A stretch of 64,000 bases of DNA. Origin: Toxorhynchites rutilus septentrionalis. Lineage: Eukaryota > Arthropoda > Insecta > Diptera > Culicidae. Position 1 is the stretch's first letter. Each line of letters starts with the position of its first letter. Of the stretch, positions 2,188 to 58,735 are shown one piece after another. The translations under genes were made by a program, and so were the position numbers. The notes below the pieces were generated by a model, which made no database searches, was not told where the DNA came from, and was given only the letters and a program-made list of their open reading frames with translations. The stretch spans positions 10,139,380-10,203,379 of the forward strand of contig NC_073746.1 of NCBI RefSeq assembly GCF_029784135.1, given 5' to 3'.

Positions 2188-4245
2188 GTATCTACTATCG
2201 ACTGGGCTTCGTTGTTTCTCGGTAAGGATACCGATGAGACGGTACGTATATTCTATGACTCTCTGAATGCAGTTTTGAATGAGCATGTTCCACGTAGACG
2301 ATCCACGAGACACTCCTACAAGCACGCTTGGTGGTCATCCGAGCTGCAGCACCTTCGTAACGCTGTCCGCAAATCCCGTAAACGTTATTTTAAAGAACGA
2401 ACGGATGCAAATCGTCACAATCTTCGCATAATTGAGACTCAGTATCACGAACTTCAAACCGCATCATTTCAAAATTACATCGCCCACCTGGAGACGACTG
2501 CGAAGCGAAACCCCTCCTATTTTTGGACGTTTATTCGCAATCGGAAGCACTCAAATCGATTCCCAGCCGAGATGACTTTCAACGGTAATAGTGCTGATTC
2601 CCCGGTAGGAATAGCAAATATGTTCGCAGATCATTTCGAAAAGGTACACAGCACCATCTCACCAGCATTCTCGCCTGACAGTCTCAAGAATTGTCCCGTC
2701 TTCGATTTGAATTTGCCGCTGTTTGAAATATCACAACACGATGTCTCATCTGCCTTGAGTAAATTGGACGTGTCTAAAGGTTCTGGAACTGATAAACTTC
2801 CGCCACTGTTCCTGAAAGAATACGCCACGTCTCTGCAGATACCACTGACAATAATTTTCAATAAGTCTCTACGTCACAGCACTTTTCCGCATCAATGGAA
2901 AACAGCTTCAACTTGTCCGATCTTCAAATCAGACTCCAATCACGCCGTTGAAAATTACCGAGGCATTTCCATTTTATGTTGCGTGGCAAAAGTATTCGAA
3001 AGACTAGTTCATAACATTTTATATACCGCATGTCAACCGATGATATCTGAATATCAACATGGCTTTGTCAGTAAACGATCGACAACAACTAATCTGATGA
3101 CGTTCACTAACTTTTTATCAACGGAAATCGAGCTCAGACACCAGGTTGATGCAATTTACTTCGATTTTTCGAAAGCGTTCGACAAGGGTCCCCACGAACT
3201 TGCAGTAGCGAAGCTTTGTCACCTAGGTTTTCCGTATTGGATGTGTGAGTGGTTGCGTTCCTACCTATCTGGACGGTGGGCGTATGTAAACATCAATGGC
3301 TCTCACTCTCGATATTTTCCCATCACATCAGGAGTACCACAGGGAAGTGTTCTTGGGCCGCTTATCTTCGTTTTGTTCATAAACGACCTGAGCTTTCGAC
3401 TGAATGCTGGAAAACTGCTCTATGCCGACGATCTGAAAATTTATAGATCAATAACATCCCATCTGGACTGTTGCGCGCTTCAGGCTGACGTAGAGGAGCT
3501 ACGGCGGTGGTGTGAGGATAACGGAATGGAATTGAATATCAAAAAATGCAAAACAGTGTCGTTCACCCGCCGGCAGTCTCGAATTGAATTTCGTTATTCA
3601 GTCGGGCCTGAAACACTAGAGTGTGTTGATTCCATTCGCGACCTTGGAGTCGTCCTAGATAACAAACTAAGGTTCAATGAGCATATCTGCGTCACTACCG
3701 CTAAAGCGTTTGCTGCCCTTGGATTTGTTCGTCGGTGCACCAATAACTTCAGAGATGTCTACGCAATCAAATCGCTATACTGCTCATTAGTACGTAGCAT
3801 TTTGGAGTATGCTGTCTGCGTGTGGTCTCCGTTTCACATCACCCAAATCACACGAATGGAGAGAGTACAGCGTAGTTTCATTAGATATGCTCTCCGACAA
3901 CTGCCTTGGACAGATCCAGACCATCTCCCCGACTACTTGAGCCGCTGCAGACTGATCGCGTTGGAATCGTTAGCTTCTAGACGTGCCAACATTCAAAAAA
4001 TATTTGTGTTTGATCTGTTAAATGGAAACTTTGATTGTCCATCCTTATTATATAATGTATCATTCTATGTATCATTTCGACAACTACGTGAGCGAGATCT
4101 ATTGTTTATCAATCGCCATAGTACTTCCTACGGATTCCATCACCCCTTAGAGAATTGTTTCCGTGAATTCAATAGGGCTTGTGCTGTGTTCGATTTTAAC
4201 GTGTCCAAAACTATCTTTAAAAATAGGATTAAGAATTTAATATAA
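2188..4245 (+). CDS. LINE ORF2 fragment: reverse transcriptase
   Basis: One open frame continues from the truncation point to the TAA at 4245 (about 685 codons). An apparent upstream ATG at 2017 belongs to the host HINE and is only fused in frame by chance. Visible reverse transcriptase motifs, in order, are FDFSKAFDKGP (catalytic Asp of block A), SGVPQGSVLGPLIF (block B), LLYADDLKIY (catalytic YADD) and a thumb and tail with WSPFHI and LRQLPW. There is no RNase H domain, which fits the jockey/CR1 group. The C-terminal tail resembles that of the minus-strand LINE at 51223-52008. The frame is unbroken, so the insertion is probably fairly young, but without endonuclease and promoter it cannot be autonomous. 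Confidence 0.85.
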   Translation, partial: VSTIDWASLFLGKDTDETVRIFYDSLNAVLNEHVPRRRSTRHSYKHAWWSSELQHLRNAVRKSRKRYFKERTDANRHNLRIIETQYHELQTASFQNYIAHLETTAKRNPSYFWTFIRNRKHSNRFPAEMTFNGNSADSPVGIANMFADHFEKVHSTISPAFSPDSLKNCPVFDLNLPLFEISQHDVSSALSKLDVSKGSGTDKLPPLFLKEYATSLQIPLTIIFNKSLRHSTFPHQWKTASTCPIFKSDSNHAVENYRGISILCCVAKVFERLVHNILYTACQPMISEYQHGFVSKRSTTTNLMTFTNFLSTEIELRHQVDAIYFDFSKAFDKGPHELAVAKLCHLGFPYWMCEWLRSYLSGRWAYVNINGSHSRYFPITSGVPQGSVLGPLIFVLFINDLSFRLNAGKLLYADDLKIYRSITSHLDCCALQADVEELRRWCEDNGMELNIKKCKTVSFTRRQSRIEFRYSVGPETLECVDSIRDLGVVLDNKLRFNEHICVTTAKAFAALGFVRRCTNNFRDVYAIKSLYCSLVRSILEYAVCVWSPFHITQITRMERVQRSFIRYALRQLPWTDPDHLPDYLSRCRLIALESLASRRANIQKIFVFDLLNGNFDCPSLLYNVSFYVSFRQLRERDLLFINRHSTSYGFHHPLENCFREFNRACAVFDFNVSKTIFKNRIKNLI

Positions 4246-4514: not shown

Positions 4515-4717
4515 TCCTGCTTTTTAATGCGGGTGTCCAAAAACATTTCTTTTCTCGGTTTCCATCCTGCAAAATTTTACACAGATTACAGATAAACCAC
4601 TTCGACCGTTGCTATAGTATAATAAACAGTGATTCCGGATTCTAACTGAGTCAAACCTTAATGTGTTTTTACGTAAATTGTTTTGCATATTTTGATTTTT
4701 ATTCCATTTTTCTGCAG

Positions 4718-6726
4718 ATGACTCCCCAAAGCCTCAGCTGGTAGAGGAACCCAAGTCGCAGCTTGGCATCCGCGGCACCAATGTGACTCTCGGATGCACG
4801 GTAACCTCTACCGCTTCGGACCCAATGGTGTTCAAGTGGAAGCAAGACAATCAGGAGTTGCCAGATAGTTTTTACACGGTCAATCAGTTGAACAGTGCCA
4901 ATGGAAGCACCGTCGGTACGACGGAGCTCACGATCCCCTACATTCAGGCCGACGGAGCTGGCAAGTATCAGTGCATTGTGACCAACAACTACGGTGTAGT
5001 GTACTCGCAGAAGGTGAAGGTAACGGTGGCGACATATCCGAGCTTTAGGAGAAGCCCAAGCGACATCAGTGTACACTCGGGGAAAACAGCCCGCTTGGAT
5101 TGCTCGGCGGTGGGGGATCCAAAGCCGCAGATATCCTGGGACAAGGATGGTGGGAGTGATTTTCCGGCGGCGAAAGAACGACGAATTCACGTCAAACCGG
5201 ATGAGGATGCGTTTTTCATCTTCAATGCCCAGTTGGCGGATATGGGGCTGTACACGTGTACTGCTGAGAACCCGGCTGGTGTCATCAAAGCGAATGCTCT
5301 CGTGGTGGTATTTGAATCACCCACACTTCTGAAGCCTTTGGAGTCGAGGAGTTCGGAGGTTGGAAAATCCAGCGTGTTGGAGTGTTTGGCATCCGGATAT
5401 CCGAAACCATCGATCCATTGGTTCAAGGATGGTGAACCTATTCTGATCACGGAACGGCATTTCTTCACAGCAGAAGGACAGTTGCTGATCATCGTTGAGA
5501 CGGATTTTAGCGATGGTGGGGAATACGAATGTAGGCTGGAAAACGATTTCGGAAGCGAGAAGGGATCGATGCGATTAACTGTTCTTGAAGGACCAGAAAT
5601 GATACAGGAAGTGTTCGCTAACAGTCCCACAGAAACGGTGGTCACGGGTCATCTTTTGAATGACAGGGACATCGTGGTTATTATCATTATAACCATCATA
5701 TGTTGTGCGATTTTGACGTCTCTGATTTGGCTCGTGGTGATGCACCGAGTGAGAAAACAAAATCTGAACCATATGGCGGATCGAAGCGAAGTGGAGGGGG
5801 AAGACATGGACATGAACGCAAACATGGAGGTCAATCAACAGAATCTGATCGTACGCAGTGGAGTCGGAAATTATTTGGAATTCCTTATACCGATGGTGCC
5901 CAACGAAGCGACCACGAACGTAGATGATGACGACCAGGCTCATCTGACCGATCGCTTCTACTACTCTGTTGTACCCAAGGTTTTGCCAAAGGTTCGTCGC
6001 AATGGTGCAGAGTCAGACGACATGGATGACGACCTTTCCTCGAAGGACTCCGGAACGGGAGGAGACTGTGGCTCGGCCACTGATTCCACTAATGTTCACC
6101 GAAGTAGTCACGACGATCTCAAGGGCCTGTTTCAATCGTTAAGCCGCAAAGCGGCTGAACTGAACGGTCCCTATCCGTACGACGAGCACGATCCGGATTC
6201 GGATCCTCGGATAGAGCCTCCACCTCCGATTCCCCCAGTGAACGCAACGACCGCTATCCTAGTGAACACCGATCCAAACAAGATTGTTTTCAGCGACGAT
6301 ATGCCACCGCCGATCATATCGCGGATGGCAACCTCACAGACGTTTCCCACGTTCGTGCATCCTTCCACGAATCCGTCCTCACCACTGGTGTCGTCCTCGA
6401 TGGAAGCAACGGTGGGTGGTGCGCACCAACAGCAGCAACCGCTCCAAACGCAACCTAGTCAAGTGCAGGTCAACAAGCTGTATCAGCTGTTGATCGAGAA
6501 TCCGAGTCTGCTGGAGAATCCGATCAAGTACCGAAGCAAATCGGTGGAAGGTGGTGGTGGTGGTGAAACGCTGCCACAGATGAGAGAATACTTGGAACCG
6601 GTTAGTAGCAGCGGGTTTGGTACGAGCAGTAGTTGCACATCTAATCGAGAGCTGCCCAGTGGTGGTGACAGCAGGGGGAACCTTAGTCAGCACGAGTCGA
6701 CGAACTTGAGGGAGGTGGTAAGCTAA
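4718..6726 (+). CDS. lbk: LRIG/lambik-like receptor, terminal coding exon (partial gene)
   Basis: An intron acceptor (ttttctgcag, ending at 4717) precedes an open frame to TAA at 6726. The first two bases complete a split Asp codon. Three Ig-like repeats follow: cysteines in TLGCTV and YQCIV; LDCSAV and YTCTAENPAG; LECLAS and YECRLEN. Phrases such as PQISWDKDGGSDFPAAKERR and TERHFFTAEGQLLII are hallmarks of the LRIG family. A hydrophobic segment at 5668-5745 (DIVVIIIITIICC...) is the membrane anchor, with basic residues after it. The cytoplasmic tail (~325 residues) is acidic and Ser/Pro/Gln-rich, with SSKDSGTGGD and a Gly run. The leucine-rich repeats would lie in exons upstream of the window. 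LRIG proteins are single-pass surface proteins that modulate growth-factor signalling; that role here is inferred from family. Confidence 0.85.
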
Positions 6727-35904: not shown

Positions 35905-36325
35905 ATGGATCATTCAACTGGTGAGTATGAAATATATTTCGGCTTTTTAATTATTAATTATTTTATCTTGTCTTATCAGCTATGAATACATTCGACTCGT
36001 TTGCTTCCATCAATCGGTAAGTGAGAAAGATGATTTCTCCCATCACCACATTTCCACTTCTATCACAGCAGCCAACAACATCCGTTTTCCTGCAGCAGTA
36101 ACCTCCAACCCCTGTTGGCAATGCCGGGGGACAGCATTAACAGCAGCAGCAGCAGAATTTGACCATGGTATGGTATTGCGAAGAACTTTCCCCATTAGAG
36201 GTTCCGTGCTTCGCGCACATTCAAAAATCCTCTTCAGACACGAAAACTCAACGACAAGGAGGTATTTATCAACTTGCTCAGCTGAATTACCTCCCGGAGG
36301 AACCCGAATGCACTGATTCCGTTGT
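35905..36325 (+). pseudogene. Decayed left copy of the small two-exon gene
   Basis: From ggatcattcaactg and the donor gtgagtat (about 35920), through an intron to the acceptor tatcag and ctatgaatac, this block aligns with 39996-40430. The coding alignment has several indels, a TAA where the right copy has TAT (after the phrase gcagcag), and a lost frame after ttccccatta. The starting ATG region is replaced by the border of HINE D. The homology ends precisely at the TATA where the two-gene transposon begins. Confidence 0.65.
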
Positions 36326-36494
36326 ATAGGGCTCTTGCTACACATACATGCAGAGCATGTGTTGGGCACACAAACGTTTGTTGACATTCGTAGTTTCTAT
36401 GCAGCAGCAGTGGAGTGAGATTTGAAAAATTAAATTGGAGAGCTAAAAATATTTTTTTTGTAAAACATATCCCTACATTTGATAAATAATAACC

Positions 36495-38030
36495 AGTAAG
36501 TACATTCTGAAATATCTGCCAACGACAGACATTTGAAATAATATGATTTCATTGCATTAATTAGTGCCTAGGACGTGTGCAGTTTTTGGGTGCAACAAAC
36601 GCGGCGATCGTGACGGGGAAAAATGGTTCCGCTTCCCCGCGGTGGATAAGCGTAGCGCCAAGAGAAAAGAGTTGTCCGAAAAGCGCCAAATTGCATGGAC
36701 AAATGCATTGAAGCGGATTGATTTGGTGCCAGAAAAATGGCCATCAACGGTGGTTTGCTCGCAGCATTTCCTTTCAGGTAAAAATGAAAATTTGTTCTCA
36801 TTAAACTTGTCATAACGTTTTTTTCTTCATTCAGGTCAAAGTGCTGATCTTTTAGATGAAATGAATCCTGATTGGGTACCGAACCAGAAATTAGGTTACA
36901 AAAATCGGATGACATCTGCTGCTAAGGACAGATTTGAGTGTTTGACTAGGCGGAGTGAAGTAAAGGAGGCTATCCGAAAGACGTTGGAAACGATTCCGGA
37001 GGAAGATTTGCTGACGGCTCCAGGTCCGGTGGACAGAGAAACAGTGCTCGAAGAAGAAATAAAAAAATTGCAATGTGAAATAGAAATTATGAGAGAAAAG
37101 CACCACCCATTTCTATGCACTAGTTTCGAAGATTTTAGTCAGAATGATGACAAATGTAAATATTTTACAGGACTAAACTACAATGTTTTTAAGTTTTTAT
37201 TTGGGTTTTTAGAACCTTATTTCCCACAACCGACTGGTTCGTGTAAGATAACGAAATTTCAAATTTTTATTTTTACTTTAGCTAAGCTTAGGCTAGATTT
37301 AGATCTGACATTAATTGCGTACATGAGTGGAGTTCACGTTAGTACTGTCTCTAGATATTTTCGTAAATGTATATACGTCATGTTTCAACGAATGAAAGGG
37401 CTTGTCAGTTGGCCGTCTCGTGAATCGGTACAAAATTCGATGCCAGAGTGTTTCAAGCGACATTTCGGTAATAAGGTCTCAGTCGTTATAGATTGCTTCG
37501 AGGTGCTCACTGAGAAGCCCAGTGACGTTTTACAAGCTGCTCAAATGTGGTCTAATTATAAACATTCACATACTGTTAAATACCTAATCGGAATCGCTCC
37601 TAATGGATCCATTATATTCATATCAAATGGATTTGGTGGCCGAGCAAGTGATAAATTTATCACTGAAAAATCCGGTATGTTAAGTAGAATGCAAAAAGGA
37701 GATTATATCATGGCAGATAGGGGATTCCTAATAAGAAATCACGTTGAAAGTGCTGGAGTTGAATTACTGTTACCTGCTTTTACTGTTGGTCAAGATCAGT
37801 TGCACCCTCTTGATATTGAAAACACACGGAAATTAGCAAATGTTAGGATTCATGTAGAGCGAGTGATTGCGCAGGTTCGGAATAAGTATAAGATACTATA
37901 CAAGAACAAGTTTCCAATAAGCACTCTGAAGAATACTTCAAACTTTTGTGAAACTTCACTAGTGGATCAAATTGTGACAAATTGTTGTTGTCTAGTTAAC
38001 CTTTGCCCCTCTGTAGTCCCTGAAGATTAA
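36495..38030 (+). CDS. THAP-DDE transposase (spliced), ISL2EU/IS4EU family
   Basis: Three exons are proposed: ...36495, 36565-36777 and 36835-38030. The start codon is split: A at 36495 before donor gtaagt, and TG at 36565 after acceptor ttag. Without this intron the frame begins GTG, so splicing decides the start. Introns are 69 and 57 nt. The product is about 469 residues. Residues 1-75 form a THAP zinc finger (MPRTCAVFGC, then VVCSQHF; C2CH). Residues ~140-165 are a charged coiled coil. Residues ~209-250 are a helix-turn-helix (KITKFQIFIFTLAKLRLD). The DDE nuclease core has IDCFE (about D291), MADRGF (D366) and HVERVIAQVR (E413). It should bind the inverted ends in the nucleus and cut and paste the element. 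A poly(A) signal AATAAA is at 38043-38048. No stop or frameshift is seen. Confidence 0.85.
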
Positions 38031-38145
38031 TCATTGTACCGAAATAAATTACTACATTTTATTGAATTTTTATATACATTTATTTGAGTTTAATACATAC
38101 ATAATACATTGGCAGTCAAAATATTATTTCGTAATTTCCCTTTTT

Positions 38146-39855
38146 TCACAATCTATCTTTAAAATACCCTCCTGTATAGTATTGGCCTAAAAGTTCAGGC
38201 ATAATAACCAATCTGAAGAAACTTTCGGCTTTTATCAACTCTTTCTTCAAAAATGTGTCGTCTCGGTCCACTCGCAGTATGACCAATTCCTTGTTTGTCC
38301 AAACAACAAAGTCGCAAAACTTAACATTAAGTATATACATCTGCATTTGCACTTGATAGAAGTACTGATGATTGTGGTTCATTTTATATCCTGTTTCCGT
38401 AATTTGAATAGGACTATCTGGCCTAGTCACATATTCTTTTATTGTTTTACCGTCTCGCAGGCAATGAGGGCACTTGATTTCCACAGAAACCTCTCCACAA
38501 CAATCACAAACGGCGATTGCATCCGGTGATGCTCCGAAAAATGGTTTTTTCTCAACTAAGTGTAGACCAGAAGAAGAATAATGGAAATTTAAATGTTCAG
38601 CTGCCATTTTTGAACCATATGTCTTTAACGCATCCTTCTCATGGGTACATCCATATCTCGTCGCAGGTGTTGAAAAACGATAATCTTCGGGATAGCAAAT
38701 TTTTCTAATTAGGTGCATTGAAGGATTATCAATCGGCGTTCTTGTGGTTGCTTTAAATGTAGATGCAGTTATTTTTCCAACGCGAAATTTTTCCCAGAAC
38801 CAACTTGAACTTTGTGAAACTCGTGCTATTTTACGAACAAGGGGTCTTGTATAACGCATATTCCTCAATTTACTATTCCCTATTTCGCGAAGCTCGTTGA
38901 GCGACTTTCCTCTTAAATTTGGATCAAAAAATTGGCAGAAAAGGATTTTTAACATATTCGGATAAAGATCAATGTCACAAAGGCTCGAGTTCACATTCGA
39001 ATGCTTTCTTGTATTTTCCATAAATTGGCCAACTGATGGATTTTCTCCGTTATCGATCAATTTACGTATAAATACATTCAACTCTTTCGCAGGGCATTCG
39101 GGTATCTGGAAATCATATCTGGAAACTGGTTGATCTTTCTGGCTGAATATGTCTTTAATTTCGCCACAATTAACCGCTTTTTTCGGTGGAACCAACCACC
39201 GATTAAGTATATCTGTACACGAAGGTTCATTTTCATTTACTTCTTTACGGGACCAGCACTCGAGAGCAAAAAGCACAGAGCCTACATGAGAACACACTTC
39301 ACCTAATCCTGCCATACAATTGCAATGTGCAGTTTGAACTGTTCCTGTGGGATCTACCGACACCCAGGTAGATGTAGGCTTTAGGTTAAATTTTTGGGAA
39401 TGCTTCACCTGCAACATCGTATAGTGAGTAATTTTCTTTACTGAGAATATACAAAACTTACCTGAGCAAACACAATACAAAAACCAGAATCGACGTATCT
39501 GGAACCTAAAAATTGTACCCATCCCGCCTTGAAATTTTTGTATGCGTCCAAGCTCTTGAAGGCCTTAAAGCATTTCCGGGTATACGGACTTTCGCGATTT
39601 ACAAGATATTCCACTAGGTCGTAATAAGTCACATTTTTTGGTAAGGCACTTTTTGAATATTCATGCTGCATCCATTGATACGGGTCGTAACCAAAACAGA
39701 ATTTTTTAATTTTTTCTGCGTATCTGGCTTTTACGCTAAAATTAAATATTTGAATACACATATCTTAGCATGATGTAAATATAGAGTGATGCGTAATTTT
39801 TGTTTCTGTTACGCTAAAATAATTATTTAAACAAAACTTACTCTTGTCGATCCAT
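38146..39855 (-). CDS. SWIM zinc finger-YqaJ nuclease (spliced), transposon accessory protein
   Basis: Three exons on the minus strand are proposed: 39855-39842 (MDRQ plus two bases), 39735-39462 and 39408-38146, with gtaag...ag introns of 106 and 53 nt. The total is 1551 nt, exactly 517 codons with the stop. Residues ~125-137 are a SWIM finger (HCNCMAGLGEVCSH). The C-terminal half is a YqaJ/lambda-exonuclease-like fold: FRVGKITAST, YGCTHEKDALKTYG (E353), FFGASPDAIAV (D392), VSVEIKCP (E406, K408) and FYQVQMQMYI (Q448). In this fold the Asp and Glu-x-Lys bind metal and cut DNA. The partner transposase is convergent. Antisense AATAAA signals (38079-38084, 38058-38063) lie in the 115-bp gap. Its role in transposition is not established; processing of ends or gaps is an inference. 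It is apparently intact. Confidence 0.85.
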
Positions 39856-39979
39856 GTTAATCATATGCAGCTGTCACTTTTGCCTGCCCAACAGACTACT
39901 AATACATATGCACGCTGCAAGCGCCCTATAGTAGAATGAAAATAGGCGAGGTAAGTGAACGTAATCGCATGATATTTTA

Positions 39980-40380
39980 ATGTTCGCATATTTATCCGGA
40001 TCATACAACTGGTGAGTAGGGAATTCATTTCTGCTTTTCACTTACTAATCATTTTATTTTGTTTCAGCTATGAATACATCCGACTCAATCAATCGGCGAA
40101 TGAGAAAGATGATTTCCCTCATCACCACATTGCTTATTTCCACTTCTGTCACCAGCCAACAGCATCAGCTTTCCCGCAGCAGTATCCTTTAAGTCCAGGG
40201 TGCTATTCCGGGGAACAGCATCAACAGCAACAGCAGCAGGACCTGGCCATCGATAGTATTTCGAGCAATTTTCCCCATCGGAGATCCCGTGCTTCACGCA
40301 CATTGAAGAATCCTCCTCAGCCACATATCTGTGTCATCAAGGGCAAGGAGGTATTCATCAATGTACTCAGTCGGATTTGA
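39980..40380 (+). CDS. Small unrecognised two-exon gene, right copy
   Basis: ATG at 39980 opens exon 1 (39980-40011, MFAYLSGSYN). Donor gtgagtag and acceptor tgtttcag bound a 56-nt intron (40012-40067), and exon 2 (40068-40380) ends with TGA. The product is 114 residues, with YEYIRLNQSANEKDDF, a His cluster (PHHH), a Gln run (QHQQQQQQ), a basic RRSRASRTLK patch and the C-terminus GKEVFINVLSRI. No signal peptide, membrane segment or known domain is recognised. AATAAA at 40464-40469 gives a short 3' UTR. The start lies only 50 bases from the transposon end and 124 bases from the divergent nuclease start. A second possible donor (gaggtaagt) at 39950 leaves open a longer 5' exon. Splice sites and a decayed tandem copy support a real gene; function is unknown. 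Confidence 0.5.
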
Positions 40381-51222: not shown

Positions 51223-53868
51223 TCAACTTATTCTGAAATAATCATTTAATCTAATCCGAAGCGCATTGCTAGCGAGATTAAAGTCGAAGATGTGAAAAAT
51301 CCTATTGAATGTAGCAGACATAAACTCCATCGGATCATGCTGGCCATACAAACTATTCCGGAAATCGAGCCTAAGGAAATCACGATGACGTAGGGTGCGT
51401 TCTGGAGCATACATGTTTAGATTAGCTAGCAAGAAAGGGGAGTCAATCTCGTTCCTCAGCAGCTTCGCAACAAACATGGCTTGTGCTGCAGATCGCCTGT
51501 TTTCCAGAGTATCAATTCGCAGCAGATTACAGCGTTCCTCGTAAGGAGGCAATTCCCTTGGATTCCGCCATGGAAGATTCCTCAAAGCACGACGTACGAA
51601 CTTTCTTTGTACAGATTCAATGCGCGCTTTCCAAATGCTGGGGAAAGGGCACCATACAACAGAAGCAAATTCCAGGATAGAACGAACCAGCGCACAGTAT
51701 AGAGATTTCAAGCTAAGTGGATCCTTAAATCCATTGGTTACCTTCAGAACAAAACCGAGCTGCTTGTTTGCCCTGGAGATGATGTCGTTATAGTGGTAGA
51801 TGAAAGTGAACTCCTTGTCAAGCATTACACCCAAGTCGCGCACTTGTTGAACCCGCTTGATGGCTTTGCCGGATAACATGTAGGAGAAATTGATGGGATT
51901 CCGCTTTCTGGTGAACGATATAACTTGGCATTTCTCGACGCTTAACGTCATACAATTTCGTACACACCACGTCTCAAAATGTTCAGCAAGCTTTGAAGAT
52001 GATGACAATCATTTATGTCTTCGACAATAACGTAGACCTTAGAATCATCAGCATAGAAGAGTCTCGTTCCACGTGGCAGGATGAAGGACACGTCGTTTAT
52101 AAATAATGCGAAAAGTAAGGGGCCTAAATTGCTCCCCTGAGGCACTCCAGATATGTTTGTGAACGACTCGGACTCATGTGACCCTATTCTCACACACAAA
52201 GCTCGATTCTTCAGGTAGGACTCGAACCACTCGACAAAACCAAGGGCTACGCCACATTTCGCTAGTTTTTCGAGAAGGATTTGATGATCAACCCGGTCAA
52301 AAGCTGCCTTCAAGTCCAAGTAGACGGCATCCACTTGGTTACCAGCATCCATGGCGCGAATACAACGCGATGAGAACTCAACTAGATTGGTGTTCACGGA
52401 TCTTTGTGGGTAGAAACCATGCTGATTCGTTTAGATGTACTGCTTGCAACTAGCAAAAAGCGATTCATTCATAATGATCTCAAACAGCTTCGAGCAGGCG
52501 CAAAGAGAAGTAATGCCGCGATAATTTTTAGCATCTCGTTTATCTCCTTTCTTGTGGATGGGGAATAGGTACGATTTTTTCCAGCTCGAGGGAAACACAC
52601 GTTGCTGCAGTGATCGATTAAAAAGTTTCGTCAGCGGAGAGGCCAGTGCAGAACTGCATTTTTACAACACTGCAGGTGAAATTCCATCCGGGCCTGGAGC
52701 ATACGAGAATTTAAGCCTTTCAGATGTTCAGATATTTCGAACATTTCAACGCTATATACATCCCGGGGAGCATCCTGGACAGATAACCTTACCTGTTCAG
52801 GTTGAGCTGTATAACTGTTGAAGGCGCGTTTGAACTGTCGTGCAAATAGTTCGCATTTTCCCCTGATCGAGTCAGCAGAAAGTTCGTCAAGATACATTGA
52901 TGTCGGGAGACCGTTTTCATTTCGCTTTGAGTTGACGAACGACCAGAACCGTTTTGGATTCACACGTAGGCTCTCCTCAATACGAATCTTGTATCTGGCA
53001 TACAAAAATCCATTGTATCTCCTGTACTCATTACTGGTCCGATTGAACTGCAGCTTCGAGTGTTGAGAACGTTGACTGCAGTAGGAACGTAGAGCAGCAG
53101 ATCGACGACGTTTCGGCAAGCGTAAACGGTTGTTTGACCATGGCGGTTTACACGGAGGAGACTTCAAAGGAACGTGTGCTGTAATCGCCTGAAGTACAGC
53201 GTTGGAGAAGAATCCAACTGCTCTATCGGTATCTTGAATCGTGTCCAGAGTATTCCAGTCGACCACGAGTAATGCTGCACATAAATGCTCAAAATTGGCC
53301 CGTTTGAAATCGAAACCAGGATCGTTACGTTCTGTTTCGTATGTTACAGCCGTTGGATATGCAACGATTAGCTCGAGTGGAGGATGACGAGGATCAATCC
53401 TAGAGAGCGATTCAACGGATTCGCTAATCTGGTAACCAGGTAGCACGATGTCGTTTACGAGGACAAGATCAAGAGTCCTGTTCTCTGCATTCTCCAAGCT
53501 GTTAACTTGGGACAAGCCGTGGAAGCAGAACCATCCAGAAATGAGCAGCTGGCAGCACACGGTCGAGAGCGATCCAGATCAACTGACGCGTAGCCATCCT
53601 CGTTCACAGCCCAGTGCACATCACAGAGATTATAATCACCAAACTGTAGTGCAATGTCGTTAGGAGAGAGATTCGAATGGATTGCGCCAATTGAATCGAT
53701 GTGTTTACGAATAGCAGAGATGTCATTCTTTCTACTTGGTGGAAAATAAAGAACTCCAATACTAACGATTCTATCCATGGATTCAATCCTGATCCAGAGC
53801 TGTTCAAGCGTAACGACGACCGGTGTTGGATCTATATAGGAGCTGTACCTAGACGAAACAGCAATCAA
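51223..53868 (-). pseudogene. Jockey/CR1-like ORF2, endonuclease end and reverse transcriptase
   Basis: Segments in order on the minus strand: 53868-53455, endonuclease middle (GVLYFPPSRKND, LQFGDYNLCDVHW, the GDFN box being GDYN); 53560-52631, endonuclease end and linker (NRTLDLVLVND, DPRHPPLEL) up to the start of the reverse transcriptase; 52397-51948, AVYLDLKAAFDRVDH, SGVPQGSNLGPLLF and RLFYADDSKVYV; 52008-51223, thumb and tail (VRDLGVMLDKEFTF, RALRNLPWRNPRELPPYEER). Frame changes near 53500, 52630-52400 and 51980 break it. No RNase H, as in the related copy at 2188. Confidence 0.8.
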
Positions 53869-53887
53869 TACTCCACCACCCGTTGAT
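53711..53887. repeat. Left half of a ~177-bp direct duplication
   Basis: This stretch of the minus-strand LINE is repeated at 58324-58500 with three mismatches seen. It abuts the 5' end of the inserted LINE and so behaves as one target-site duplication copy. Confidence 0.85.
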
Positions 53888-53962
53888 TAGTTAGCGCTCA
53901 TCTTCCGAGCCAAGCAGACGTGTTTTCTCTTAAGCTAAACCAGGAAGTTTATACAAGCTAAA

Positions 53963-55075
53963 TTGTTTCGCCGCGTTATTTTCATCGCCGAGCAGTTGTG
54001 TGTTTCCGCATACTACGGCTCAGTGATGGTACGGCGCGAAAATACATTCCGCATAGATTATGCGATGTTGCCGCGCAAGCCGGACTACACGAAAGTGCAG
54101 AATTTCATAGGAACTATTCTGGGCTTGAAACCAGGTGAAGTGACGAGAATCCAATGTAGCCGAAGCCTCGGATGTGCCTTCGTGAAGGTAGTCGATCTGG
54201 CGCTGGCACAAAAAGTGTGCGAAGAACACGACGGAAAACACGAGGTGACAGTGGAAGGAGGGGTGAAGATTCCCCTACGAATAACGATGGAGGATGGTGC
54301 AGTGGAATTCAAATTATTCGATTTGTCTGAAGACGTGTCGGATGATGCCATCACTAAATTCCTCTCCGCATACGGTGACGTCATCTTAGTGCGAGAGCAG
54401 ATATGCGGAAATGATCAGCAGTACTTTTTTCCGGGTATCTGCACTGGTGTCCGAGTTGTGAAAATGATCGTAAAACACAACATAGAATCATGGGTTGTCA
54501 TCGAAGGCGAATTGACGCTGCTATCCTATTTTGGTCAGCGTCAAACATGCCGACATTGTCGTGAATTCATCCACGTCGGAGCGTCCTGCGTTCCGAACAA
54601 GAAGCTGCTCGTACAAAAATCATACGCTGATGCTACGAAGCAGCCAGCAGCTTTGAATGCTAAACCAACTGCGAAACCGCATGTCCAACAAACAACGACA
54701 CCGAGTCATCCAACGTCTGTATTGCGGCATCCGCCGCCGAAGAAGCAGAAGCAGCAGCAAAAACAGCTGCCGATTCCCGTACCTACAATAGAACCGATCG
54801 ATACACAATCGGAAACACAATTCCCACCGCTCAGTATCCCTATCATACCTATATCGGGTTCGAATCGACCATCGGATAGCAGGTCGTTGCCCAGTACATC
54901 TGGTCAACAACCTCCTGCTAGTGGCGAAGTGATCGACAGACCTGCTAGTGGAAAATCCGATGGCAACGAGACAGACGAATCGGCGATGTCATCTACACGC
55001 TTAAGAGCACGGCGCCAATGCAGGAGGCGACGAGAGGACAGCGACGACGAAAGGGAGCAAAACAACAAGCAATGA
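53963..55075 (+). CDS. L1/Tx1-like LINE ORF1
   Basis: An open frame of 370 codons from ATG 53963 (another in-frame ATG at 54026 gives MVRRENTFRIDYAML and is also plausible) to TGA 55075. The N-terminal half has two RRM-like stretches (GLKPGEVTRIQCSRSLGCAF and FKLFDLSEDVSDDAITKFLS). A single zinc-knuckle-like box follows (CRHCREFIHVGASC). The C-terminal third is Pro/Gln/Ser-rich and ends in a basic tail (RLRARRQCRRRREDSDDE). Such proteins bind the element RNA in the RNP. The frame is intact. The stop overlaps the ORF2 start as ATGA. Confidence 0.75.
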   Translation: MFRRVIFIAEQLCVSAYYGSVMVRRENTFRIDYAMLPRKPDYTKVQNFIGTILGLKPGEVTRIQCSRSLGCAFVKVVDLALAQKVCEEHDGKHEVTVEGGVKIPLRITMEDGAVEFKLFDLSEDVSDDAITKFLSAYGDVILVREQICGNDQQYFFPGICTGVRVVKMIVKHNIESWVVIEGELTLLSYFGQRQTCRHCREFIHVGASCVPNKKLLVQKSYADATKQPAALNAKPTAKPHVQQTTTPSHPTSVLRHPPPKKQKQQQKQLPIPVPTIEPIDTQSETQFPPLSIPIIPISGSNRPSDSRSLPSTSGQQPPASGEVIDRPASGKSDGNETDESAMSSTRLRARRQCRRRREDSDDEREQNNKQ

Positions 55076-58000
55076 GTCATCTGACCAGTTACAACGTTGC
55101 CACTATAAACATCAACACGATCACCAATGAAACGAAGATGAATGCCCTCCGAACTTTCTGCAGAACGATGGACCTGGACATCGTTTTTCTGCAAGAAGTC
55201 CAGAACGAGCAGCTCCTCATCCCTGGCTACAACGTCGTCACAAACGTTGATCAGTCGAGGAGAGGGACGGCAATAGCGCTGAAGGAGTATATACGCTTCT
55301 CTCATACTGAAAAAAAGTTTAAACGGAAGACTTATTGCCCTACGGGTCGAAAACACGACCATAGCGAATATATACGCACCGTCAGGCACCGCAATGCGCG
55401 CCGAACGAGAAAATTTTTTCACTGACACCATCGCTTTTTATTTGCGGCACAATACAGAAAATTTGATTCTTGCTGGCGACTTCAACTGTGTGCTGCGACC
55501 ATGTGACTCGACGGGACACAACAACAGCCCAGCTCTACAAGCCACCGTTCGGCAACTGCAACTGAGCGACATTTGGGTGAAGTTATACCCCACCACTTCC
55601 GCACCCACATACATAACGCATAATTCTGTCTCCAGGCTCGATCGAATTTATGTCAGCCATGGACTCAGTACGCATCTGCGAAACGCGGCCACACATGTCT
55701 GTTCATTCACGAACCACAAAGCACTAACTGCTCGAATATGCCTCCCTAACCTGGGTCGCGAACCCGGTCGCGCTTACTGGTCTTTACGTCCCCATATTCT
55801 GACAACAGATAATTCCAGATAATGAATTCCAGATTTCATGGCAATATGTGACTCGACAACGACGATATTATCCAAACTGGCTCACGTGGTGGTTAACATA
55901 CGCAAAGCCAAGAATCCAGCCTTTCTTTCGACGGAAATCGCGTGAGGCGTACAGCGTATTCTATGCGGAGCATCAACGGCTGTACAACCAGCTGAGGCAA
56001 GCGTATGATGGATATTTTCAAAACCCAGCGATGCTAGTCACAATAAATCGTGTGAAAGCACAAATGCTTGCACATCAACGCACATTCTCCCAACATTTTA
56101 TGCGCATCAACGACACTTACATTGCGGGGGAAAACATTAGTACCTTCCAGCTGGGTGAGAGAAGACGTAAAAAAAATATAATCACAGAGCTGCGTGGCGT
56201 AAACGACGAAAATCTAAATACTTCCGAAGCGATTGAAAATCATCTTCTTCGGTACTTTGCCGAGTTATACACAGCGTCAGAAGTGGATGAGCCAGCGCGG
56301 TATCCTTTCGAATGCGAGAGAGTGATACCTGTAAATGATGAGTTGAACGAAGCCTGCATGGCTGAAATAACAACAGCAGAAATATTAGCATCAATTCGGT
56401 CATCAGCAAAAAAGAAGGCTGCTGGGAGCGATGGGTTACCCATCGAATTTTATGAACACACTTTCGACGTCATTCATCGTGAGCTGAATCTCGTTTTAAA
56501 CGAAGCACTTGTATCCGAGATACCTCCTGAGTTCGCCAATGGTGTAATCGTGCTAGTGCGAAAAAGGGGAACAGAAAATACTGCACGAGGATATCGTCCA
56601 ATCAGTCTTCTAAATTCGGATTTTAAAATTCTCAGTAGAATTATGAAGTTTCGTCTTGAACGGATCATACGTAACCATCGGGTACTGAGTGATGCGCAAA
56701 AGTGTTCCAACGAAGGGCACTCAATTTTCGAAGCCACTCTGTCTCTGAAAGACAGAATTGCTCAGCTGAAGGCGAGTAAGATAAAAGGGAAGCTGATAAG
56801 CTACGATCTAGATCATGCTTTCGATCGGGTATCTCTTTCCTTCCTTCATCAAACAATGAGACAGCTGGGAATAAATCCGAGCTTCGTTGACTTACTAGCA
56901 CGAATCGCAGAACAATCCTTCTCTCGTTTGCTAATAAACGGGCACCTTTCGCAGCGCTTCCCGATCGAACGCTCCGTACGGCAGGGAGATCCGATGTCGA
57001 TGCTGCTCTTCGTCATCTACCTCCACCCTTTTCTGACAAAGCTGGAGCGACAACTCGGTTCCGACCTCGTGGTGGCATACGCAGATGACATATCTGCGAT
57101 AGTTACCAACACTGATACTATAGAGCGCATCAATGAGCTTTTCAATGATTTTGAACGTGCCGCTGGAGCAAAACAAAACAGATCCAAAACGATTTCAATC
57201 GACGTCGGGCTCATTGATGGGAATCCAATAAGCGTGCCGTGGCTACATACAACAGATAAAGTGAAGATTTTGGGGGTGTTTTTCACCAACTCGATCCGAG
57301 AAATGAGCAAAATTAACTGGGACGCTCTCATAACAAAATTTGCGCAGCAGTTGTGGCTGCACTCTTTGAGAAATCTCAACCTCTATCAGAAAATAATAGT
57401 ACTAAACACATTCATCACGGCGAAGATTTGGTACGTGGCCTCAATTCTTGCGCCGTATTGCGTTCACACGGCGAAAATAACGTCGCTTATGGGGTCATTC
57501 CTGTGGCGTGGACTTCCGGCGCGAGTTCCGATGGAGCAACTAGCGCGTGATACCGAATATGGTGGACTGAAACTGCAGCTACCAGTCTTCAAATGCAAAG
57601 CGTTGCTCTTGAATCGTCACATACAGGCAAGTGGCTCCCTCCCCTATTACCAATCCCTTCTGAACCAGGCTATTCCTCCCCCCGCAGACCTTCCCTGCTT
57701 CAAGATAATTTCCCAACAAATCCCCCTTCTCCCCCCACTTGTTAGAGCGAATCCATCTAGTGAACAAATCCACCGAATCTTTCTGGAGCGAACAGAAACA
57801 CCTCGTGTTGAACGGAGAAATCCGGGAACAAATTGGAAAAGAGTTTGGAAGAATATTCTAACGAAACAACTATCGTCGAGCCAGCGAAGCAGTTTGTATC
57901 TGTTCGTAAATGAGAAGACAGAACATAGGCAATTAATGAAAAGGATTCAAAGAGCGAATGATGAACACTGTCTGCACTGTAATACTGCGATTGAAACGTT

Positions 58001-58253
58001 GCAACACAAATTTAGTGACTGTTTCCGGGTAGCACCTGCTTGGGCTTACGTACAACAGAGAATAACAGGAATACTCGAGGGATGGCAACGTCTTTCTTTC
58101 GAAGAACTAATGCGACCAGCACTACTGAACATAGCAACTACCAAACGAAGTCAAATATTGAAAATTTTAATTCTGTTCATCAATTATGTTAATGAAATTA
58201 ATGGAAGAATTGATGTTGGCGCACTTGCATTCTACTTAAGATGCGAAAATTAA
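55072..58253 (+). pseudogene. L1/Tx1-like LINE ORF2: endonuclease-RT, two frameshifts
   Basis: ATG 55072 overlaps the ORF1 stop. The endonuclease begins NVATININTITNETK and has DIVFLQEVQNEQ. The frame shifts in the A7 run at 55310-55316. It continues in another frame with LILAGDFNCVLRP, SRLDRIYVS and the NHKAL box, and is lost again near 55800-55830 at an imperfect local duplication (agataattcc / gataatgaattcc). From 55848 one frame stays open to TAA 58253: reverse transcriptase with GYRPISLLNSDFKILS, ISYDLDHAFDRV (Asp), SVRQGDPMSMLLFVIY and VAYADDISAI (catalytic Asps). The Cys/His end is CLHCNTAIETLQHKFSDC. With only two small lesions, the copy is young but dead as it stands. Confidence 0.8.
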
Positions 58254-58295: not shown

Positions 58296-58735
58296 TTATA
58301 TTTTATTTAATAAAAAAAAAAAAATAGCAGAGATGTCATTCTTTCTACTTGGTGGAAAATAGAGAACTCCAATACTAACGATTCTATCCATGGATTCAAT
58401 CCTGATCCAGAGCTGTTCAAGCGTAACGTCGACCGGTGTTGGATCTATATAGGAGCTGTATCTAGACGAAACAGCAATCAATACTCCACCACCCGTTGAT
58501 TTGCGGCTGTTTTGAGCATTGCGATCCGTTCTGTAAACAGAGTAGCCGTTCCCGAAGAGTTGCGACGAATAGATGCAATCATCTAACCAGGTCTCAGTGA
58601 GCACAACCATGTCGTAATCAGCATCGCTGATAGCCAGGAAAAAAGCATCGATTTTGGTACGTAATCCACGGACGTTCTGGTAATAGATGCGTAGGCTACT
58701 GATAGGTACAGAAGCATTTGGATATTGTATCCTTC
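58296..58735 (-). pseudogene. Jockey/CR1-like ORF2, endonuclease N-terminus
   Basis: From about 58720 on the minus strand: SLRIYYQNVRGLRTKIDAFF, then ADYDMVVLTETWLDD, YRTDRNAQNSRKSTGGGVLI and SRYSSYIDPTP, i.e. the first third of an apurinic-type endonuclease, including the Glu of ETW. The frame runs into the A run of the other LINE at 58323. It continues logically in 53887-53455. Confidence 0.8.
58324..58500. repeat. Right half of the ~177-bp direct duplication
   Basis: Matches 53711-53887 apart from three single-base differences (ataaag/atagag; gacgacc/gtcgacc; gtacct/gtatct). It follows directly after the poly(A) of the inserted LINE. Confidence 0.85.

Follow-up and report, generated by a model that had tools for sequence, protein, structure and literature searches.

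The question raised by this locus is whether the window, meaning the whole stretch of 64,000 nucleotides that was analysed from the 902.6 Mb assembly of Toxorhynchites rutilus septentrionalis, carries a two-gene transposon that may still move, and what the nuclease encoded in it could be for. A preliminary description had recognised an ISL2EU element with a THAP-DDE transposase and a SWIM-YqaJ nuclease at 36329..39926. The inverted ends that it reported are present (AGGGC...GCCCT), but the element reaches one more base outward at both ends. The whole element (A-GGGC...GCCC-T) therefore spans 36328..39927 on the plus strand and measures 3,600 bp, as supported by the same ends in nine near-identical copies and by the empty site of copy L009. 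We counted the outer A/T as part of the element because it is absent from empty sites; the GG of the AGGGC end occurs one base in. The left terminal inverted repeat AGGGCTCTTGC (36328..36338, plus strand) matches the right end at 10 of 11 positions and is kept in the nine copies, and the right repeat AGGGCGCTTGC (39917..39927, minus strand) was read directly from the sequence. A subterminal motif, TGTTGGGCA, was read at 36360..36368 (plus strand) and is mirrored near the right end at 39885..39893 (minus strand); it is a candidate transposase-binding site.

The duplicated target site is AT (36326..36327 on the left and 39928..39929 on the right), according to both an end-pair survey and the empty site of the window copy. 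The TATA flanks initially described arise only from the T before and the A after this AT in the window copy, while the flanks of other copies read CATA/TATT, AATA/TATC and so on. For the survey, 38 loci were submitted and both ends were recovered from 24; two of the 26 rows have one common right end. The dinucleotides at the two ends agree in all 26 end pairs (25 AT and one GT, the latter being GT/GT at L043). Empty sites were found for four of the nine full-length insertions: the window copy (L004), L009, L012 and L014, the last lying inside a non-autonomous copy. The joined flank of the window copy is matched over its full length at 97-99% in 40 of the 40 matches listed. Positions 1-60 of the L009 empty-site query map to C3:319494026-319494085 and positions 59-118 to C3:319497686-319497745; therefore 2 bp were duplicated and 3,600 bp were inserted. 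A 4-bp TATA duplication was considered and rejected, the fourth base being unequal on the two sides in other copies and the L009 empty site giving only AT. TA ends with no duplication at all would formally be possible from AT sites; the GT/GT pair of L043 speaks for a true duplication and against palindromic ends. Taken alone, the L014 empty site shows a 4-bp overlap that is compatible with an AT or a TATA duplication.

ISL2EU elements have two ORFs (a DDE-HTH-THAP transposase and a YqaJ nuclease), a 2-bp AT duplication and short inverted ends, with an average size of about 4.8 kb and ends that usually begin with GG (PMC4482050; PMC9179366). The mosquito element shares with them the DDE-HTH-THAP transposase, the YqaJ second ORF, the 2-bp AT duplication, short inverted ends and an animal host, at 3.6 kb compared to about 4.8 kb. 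From its sequence we assign it to the ISL2EU group of the PHIS superfamily (PIF/Harbinger-ISL2EU-Spy) of DNA transposons. This identity stands as first proposed; the kind of element is already known and the mosquito element is a further member. It departs from the group in the predicted interruption of its start codon by an intron, in the bases beside the target, and perhaps in its ends, which start AGGGC rather than with the usual GG. A conserved flanking context A|AT|T has been given beside the AT duplication (PMC4482050). Among our 26 end pairs, the base before AT is A in 11, T in 10 and C in 5, and the base after it is T in 12, A in 8, G in 5 and C in 1, a preference for A|AT|T that is weak if any. 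We did not treat this as excluding ISL2EU membership, because the cited source presents the context as a flanking feature beside the duplication.

The nuclease gene lies on the minus strand, convergent to the transposase gene as had been described, and its 1,551-nt frame closes after intron removal as noted then. All introns of both genes are predictions from the DNA sequence, and they number four (two per gene) with four junctions, not the five junctions counted earlier. Exon 1 (MDRQ..) occupies 39842..39855, predicted intron 1 (106 nt) 39736..39841, exon 2 39462..39735, predicted intron 2 (53 nt) 39409..39461, and exon 3, with the SWIM finger and the lambda-exonuclease-type core, 38146..39408. 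A public protein of the same species, P0001, which is 100% identical over the matched part, is spliced alike at both introns and reads across both junctions. The protein may start three codons earlier, at the in-frame ATG at 39864 (MINMDRQD..., as in P0001). An alignment of 23 proteins shows the SWIM residues C125, C127, C135 and H137 to be invariant, together with D392, E406 and K408 of the core, and E353 to be nearly so. With these residues and the Pfam match (YqaJ, E=1.8e-13), both the YqaJ nuclease and its SWIM finger were confirmed. Compared to solved structures as a single sequence, the nuclease gave no direct match; the profile search succeeded (LHK-Exo, 1.4e-22; lambda exonuclease, 1.5e-8). 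In a PDB fold search, the AlphaFold2 model matched lambda exonuclease (3sm4) with E 7.0e-10 and probability 1.00. We infer that the protein is a lambda-exonuclease-type enzyme with predicted 5'-to-3' activity. It has the fold and the E...D...E-x-K core of the lambda exonuclease / LHK-Exo / YqaJ family, and differs from it in an added N-terminal SWIM finger and in a CxC pair near the core, and in that the element encodes no single-strand annealing partner. Unlike in the ISL2EU group, and as in many relatives, it has no C-terminal PHD finger.

The transposase gene is on the plus strand. Pfam matched DDE_Tnp_4 (E=1.4e-47), HTH_Tnp_4 (2.2e-9) and THAP (5.8e-8; residues 5-87 of the spliced protein), and the triad D291, D366 and E413 (P0121 numbering) is invariant in 29 aligned sequences, which bears out the complete DDE triad originally reported. 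The 1,410-nt length of the frame and its closure also held; the plain reading of the gene as intact did not, in that there is no contiguous ATG and the contiguous frame opens with GTG at 36564. An ATG arises only on removal of an intron ending at 36564, which joins A|TG. The predicted gene therefore consists of the first base of the start codon at the end of exon 1 (36495), intron 1 (36496..36564, 69 nt, GTAAGT...TTAG), exon 2, which completes the start codon and encodes most of THAP (36565..36777), intron 2 (36778..36834, 57 nt), and exon 3 with the end of THAP, HTH_Tnp_4 and DDE_Tnp_4 (36835..38030, stop at 38028-38030); 36495, 36565-36777 and 36835-38030 add up to 1,410 nt. Splicing yields 469 aa, which is the length of the Aedes aegypti protein LOC110681527 isoform X2 (P0121). 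This public protein belongs to another species and was compared as protein only; it is 78% identical over the full length (100% of the query), a value that would not require horizontal transfer, and begins MPRTCAIFGC. With a start codon that forms only when A and TG are joined, the transposase would depend on RNA from which the 69-nt intron has been removed.

Seven possible donors were found in the range searched, every one with the acceptor 36564; only that at 36496 is GTRAGT, and the other six, none of which fits, were rejected. A comparable donor appeared in 227 of 20,000 shuffles. The sites of intron 1 are kept in an older copy diverged by about 15% (L017), with donor AATAACCA|GTGAGT and acceptor AATTAG|TGCC. 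The nearest alternative donor, GTGAGA at 36415, would give with the same acceptor a longer start, MQSMCWAHKRLLTFVVSMQQQW before MPRTC; it is not kept in L017, which has GTGAAA there. A Wyeomyia protein model has V at the position of the start Met, which hints at the same split-start arrangement. The split start, if true, would also account for the absence of the THAP domain from P0122, a database model of the element's protein that begins at MNPDW. In the part of the literature covered by our search, we found nothing pertinent on intron-split start codons. Read directly, the pyrimidine tract of the start-codon intron is weak.

Searching the genome for near-identical copies with the same ends, as the preliminary description had proposed, gave nine full-length copies on three chromosomes, which differ by two substitutions and the length of one T run. 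The refutation set out in that description, a lack of further copies bearing these ends, is thereby disposed of. The window copy is not an isolated survivor, and the earlier guess of recent activity stands with these copies and the empty sites. Both frames are open in eight of the nine; in L014, codon 440 of the transposase has become a stop (TCA to TAA), and L016 carries the nuclease change I309T. Non-autonomous derivatives of about 1 kb carry the same ends, seven of them (984-985 bp) at 99.5-100% identity. Judged against L017, both genes show purifying selection, with dN/dS of 0.33 (0.23-0.50) for the transposase and 0.53 (0.36-0.75) for the nuclease; this is not clearly so against L018, an older and more broken copy that aligns poorly, where the values are 0.61 (0.41-1.00) and 0.81 (0.53-1.24). 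The L018 intervals extend to or include 1. Very probably, then, the element is an autonomous ISL2EU transposon of young age; its last movements were very recent and it may be mobile still. Near-identity by itself would be insufficient to exclude segmental duplication, gene conversion or assembly error as the origin of the nine copies. We regard such an origin as extremely unlikely, given the AT duplication at all nine sites, the empty sites for four of them, and flanks that, compared between copies within 500 bp on each side, share only repeats and none in register at the ends. The transposase gene could instead be damaged, its ATG mutated to GTG, with the copies moved by an intact source outside the assembly or by a relative. 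A Met does stand at the GTG position in 61 of the 67 relatives aligned there (53 further relatives are unaligned at this position). Yet the nine copies are alike at the GTG and their frames are otherwise clean in eight, L017 at its divergence retains donor, acceptor and TG, and the Wyeomyia protein also has V at that position, so that we consider damage very improbable.

As to the nuclease, family knowledge suggests that the THAP domain would bind the element ends and that the DDE domain would excise the element and join it at AT. The nuclease, placed on DNA by its SWIM finger, would then resect the donor-site break 5'-to-3'. This would favour homologous repair with the sister or homologue as template, and cut-and-paste would thereby restore the donor copy. 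Such 5'-end resection is our preferred guess, a tentative one. In Tn7, TnsA cleaves the second strand at the ends of the transposon, the first being cut by the DDE transposase. A similar second-strand cutter would explain why a DDE transposase is likewise accompanied here by a PD-(D/E)xK-type nuclease. This is improbable, however, since the best fold matches are processive exonucleases (lambda exonuclease, LHK-Exo) and no site-specific cutter, and since the PIF/Harbinger and Nuwa relatives are described as pairing similar DDE transposases with a Myb/SANT protein in place of the nuclease (PMC4482050); the nuclease is therefore dispensable for DDE chemistry as such. Alternatively, the nuclease may have been captured as a recombination gene from a virus or phage and have no direct role in transposition, serving for example in chromatin tethering, countering of host defence or processing of extrachromosomal copies. 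Its matches do reach Viral_alk_exo (Pfam, 9.5e-9) and, by profile and fold, mimivirus R354 and herpesvirus ORF 37/SOX; non-autonomous copies were amplified carrying only remnants of the nuclease gene in cis; and a PHD-like C-terminal finger, likened to ING-type fingers by profile search and suggestive of a chromatin task, is present in 52 of the 92 relatives that extend far enough. Within the literature covered, our search found no mention of ISL2EU together with a PHD finger. Against a captured gene, nuclease and transposase adjoin each other in other animals, as some matches of the two protein searches lie on contigs of equal length (for example P0014/P0134, 25,871; P0031/P0160, 19,050; P0057/P0189, 12,173), and the nuclease is under purifying selection relative to L017, which would also fit another role and is not decisive. 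We hold this possibility to be unlikely though still worth considering.

Resection could also be combined with the split start. Full THAP transposase would be limited to spliced RNA, unspliced RNA would give at most a THAP-less protein starting from the next Met (MNPDW), a possible built-in inhibitor, and the element's own exonuclease would resect the donor break in a copy-and-restore cycle; as a whole this scheme is doubtful. A young family with defined ends and target and nine near-identical copies is suited to a direct test of the nuclease in excision and repair. KolobokE (PMC9587614) is likewise a DDE transposon with a lambda-exonuclease-like PD-(D/E)xK nuclease; its transposase belongs to another superfamily and its nuclease is described as downstream of the transposase domain.

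The element is real and is a new member of the ISL2EU family. It occupies positions 36328 to 39927 (3,600 bp) of the window, which is C3:10139380-10203379 in an assembly of the mosquito Toxorhynchites rutilus septentrionalis with 902,557,243 bases and 514 contigs. Short terminal inverted repeats, AGGGCTCTTGC and AGGGCGCTTGC, alike at 10 of 11 positions, and a mirrored subterminal motif, TGTTGGGCA, about 32-34 bp inward of each end, were read from the sequence. The transposase gene (+ strand) has a 469-aa product with THAP (5.8e-8), HTH_Tnp_4 (2.2e-9) and DDE_Tnp_4 (1.4e-47) domains, and its DDE residues D291, D366 and E413 (numbering of the Aedes aegypti transposase P0121) show no variation in 29 aligned transposases. 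The nuclease gene (- strand) lies tail to tail with it, with 115 bp between stops, and contains a YqaJ domain (1.8e-13); its product has 516 aa, or 519 aa if the start is the in-frame ATG at 39864, as in the public Toxorhynchites rutilus septentrionalis protein P0001. The latter is 100% identical to the nuclease across the 56% covered. P0001 (313 aa) departs from the third nuclease exon before its end and looks incomplete as a model, as does the database transposase model P0122, which has no THAP domain and begins with MNPDW. PMC9179366 gives the same pair of transposase and YqaJ nuclease as PMC4482050, and PMC9587614 describes KolobokE as carrying a lambda-exonuclease-like nuclease. Our literature search, at title level, returned no title on mosquito ISL2EU elements, and we do not claim a first report.

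The preliminary description considered the element apparently intact and possibly active and proposed looking for near-identical copies; the genome does hold them. The DNA search with the element gave at least 102 matches, and at least nine copies are full-length, all copy counts being lower bounds since 40 of 695 initial candidates were scored. The nine-copy alignment contains two substitutions in total, one at 37939 in L014, which creates a stop at transposase codon 440, and one at 38771 in L016, which changes the nuclease (I309T); a single T-run also varies in length (one shorter in L015, one longer in L016). Eight of the nine copies have an uninterrupted large transposase exon, and all nine an uninterrupted large nuclease exon. 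The only similarities among their flanks (500 bp per side) are repeats out of register with the ends. Insect mutation rates are about 3e-9 per generation, and the divergence of about 6e-5 per site (2 substitutions over 9 x 3,598 sites) then corresponds, as a rough figure, to a copy age of the order of 20,000 generations. The element is strikingly young.

At the insertion sites, we examined 38 loci and obtained both ends from 24, giving 26 rows, two of them with a common right end. The flanking dinucleotides agree in every row (AT in 25, GT in one), and the GT/GT row speaks for genuine duplication of the dinucleotide rather than its belonging to palindromic ends. Empty sites were sought with both flanks joined and AT counted once. 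For L009, 26 of 30 rows spanned the junction, seven of these identically at 118/118 bases; for L012 and for the window copy, all 40 matches listed did so at 97-99% (the best 40 of 67 and of 279 candidates, respectively). With at least 40 empty copies of its flank, the window's copy was placed in a high-copy dispersed repeat. Its flanks also include segments about 74-77% similar in direct order (35907-36241 and 39998-40324). The fourth insertion with an empty site, L014, lies within a non-autonomous copy, where a 4-bp flank overlap (TATA) is seen in six of eight related copies compared, as expected from AT plus the element's own terminal A and T.

Many short relatives retain positions 1-86 and 3320-3598 of the element, together with a nuclease-gene fragment at about 2397-3021. 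Among 14 aligned, seven copies with lengths of 984-985 bp share 99.5-100% identity among themselves, and so these also moved recently; the remaining seven are 85-94% alike. One derivative lies 4 bp from the autonomous copy L015 in the same orientation, and another served as the landing site of L014. The 984-985-bp copies (L019-L024; L015:4102-5086 in reverse-complement coordinates) hold a decayed nuclease-gene piece beyond mere ends.

Both genes were compared with an older, diverged copy, L017. By codon position, the transposase differed at.084/.050/.149 and the nuclease at.084/.111/.132, against.158 in introns, and dN/dS was 0.33 (bootstrap 0.23-0.50; 391 codons) and 0.53 (0.36-0.75; 461 codons), respectively, ratios that indicate purifying selection. 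Against L018, a second older and more deleted copy, the ratios of 0.61 (0.41-1.00) and 0.81 (0.53-1.24), from a poor alignment, give no clear support for such selection.

Without splicing, the transposase frame opens on a GTG (36564), and no ATG precedes the THAP domain. Predicted removal of 36496-36564 (donor A|GTAAGT, acceptor TTAG|TG) would yield ACC-ATG-CCT and the N-terminus MPRTCAVFGC, which resembles MPRTCAIFGC of the Aedes protein. All seven upstream GT-AG solutions use this acceptor, and the one at 36496 alone has a GTRAGT donor; such a donor occurred at suitable distance in 227 of 20,000 dinucleotide shuffles. L017 retains the acceptor and this donor, the latter as GTGAGT. The next-best donor, GTGAGA at 36415 (22 more residues), reads GTGAAA in L017 and was rejected. 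Of 120 relatives listed, 53 are unaligned at the first residue and 51 begin exactly there with Met, which does not distinguish a split from a whole codon. Sixteen reach further upstream; read from the rows, Met stands exactly there in 10 and within two residues in five, and a Wyeomyia mosquito protein is the only one without it, having Val instead. These observations fit a predicted mosquito-lineage intron within the transposase start codon. We propose that it may act as a switch, which would be new biology.

In 23 aligned nucleases, D392, E406 and K408 and the SWIM residues C125, C127, C135 and H137 are invariant, and E353 nearly so. A 32-sequence profile, built from the window's exon plus 31 relatives and searched against solved chains, matched LHK-Exo (1.4e-22), mimivirus R354 (6e-10), lambda exonuclease (1.5e-8) and herpesvirus ORF 37/SOX (2e-4). 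The AlphaFold2 model of exon 3 has a mean pLDDT of 77.3, with the nuclease half mostly above 90 and the SWIM part and linker modelled poorly; its best fold matches are lambda exonuclease and LHK-Exo. Judging from the family, 5'-to-3' exonuclease is the likeliest chemistry. The enzyme would act on the donor break left by excision, and such a donor-break resector, which we put forward as a proposal, would be new biology. A C-terminal PHD-like finger is present in 52 of the 92 relatives with at least 45 residues past the DF motif among 120 listed (e.g. P0003, P0005, P0010, P0017). The mosquito nuclease has no such finger. Matches to the family profile include ING-type PHD structures, with E-values as low as 3e-17; ISL2EU paired with "PHD finger" was not found in the literature searched.

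The assembly also contains another DDE family, which shares 30-32% identity with the element's transposase; it occurs, for example, at L082:164-1390 (-), C2:98797086 and C3:332363770, with uninterrupted frames of 409-420 aa at 11 places. Inspection by eye showed no THAP in its 408-aa frame, and it is probably another PHIS-type transposon. Elsewhere in the window, two long frames lie between the copies of a 179-bp direct repeat (53710-53888 and 58323-58501, 98% identical): 53939-55075 and 55803-58253, the latter of 816 aa and reverse-transcriptase-like by eye. The 676-aa open frame at 4696-6726, in which a transmembrane segment and immunoglobulin-like repeats were recognised by eye, is probably a host gene exon.
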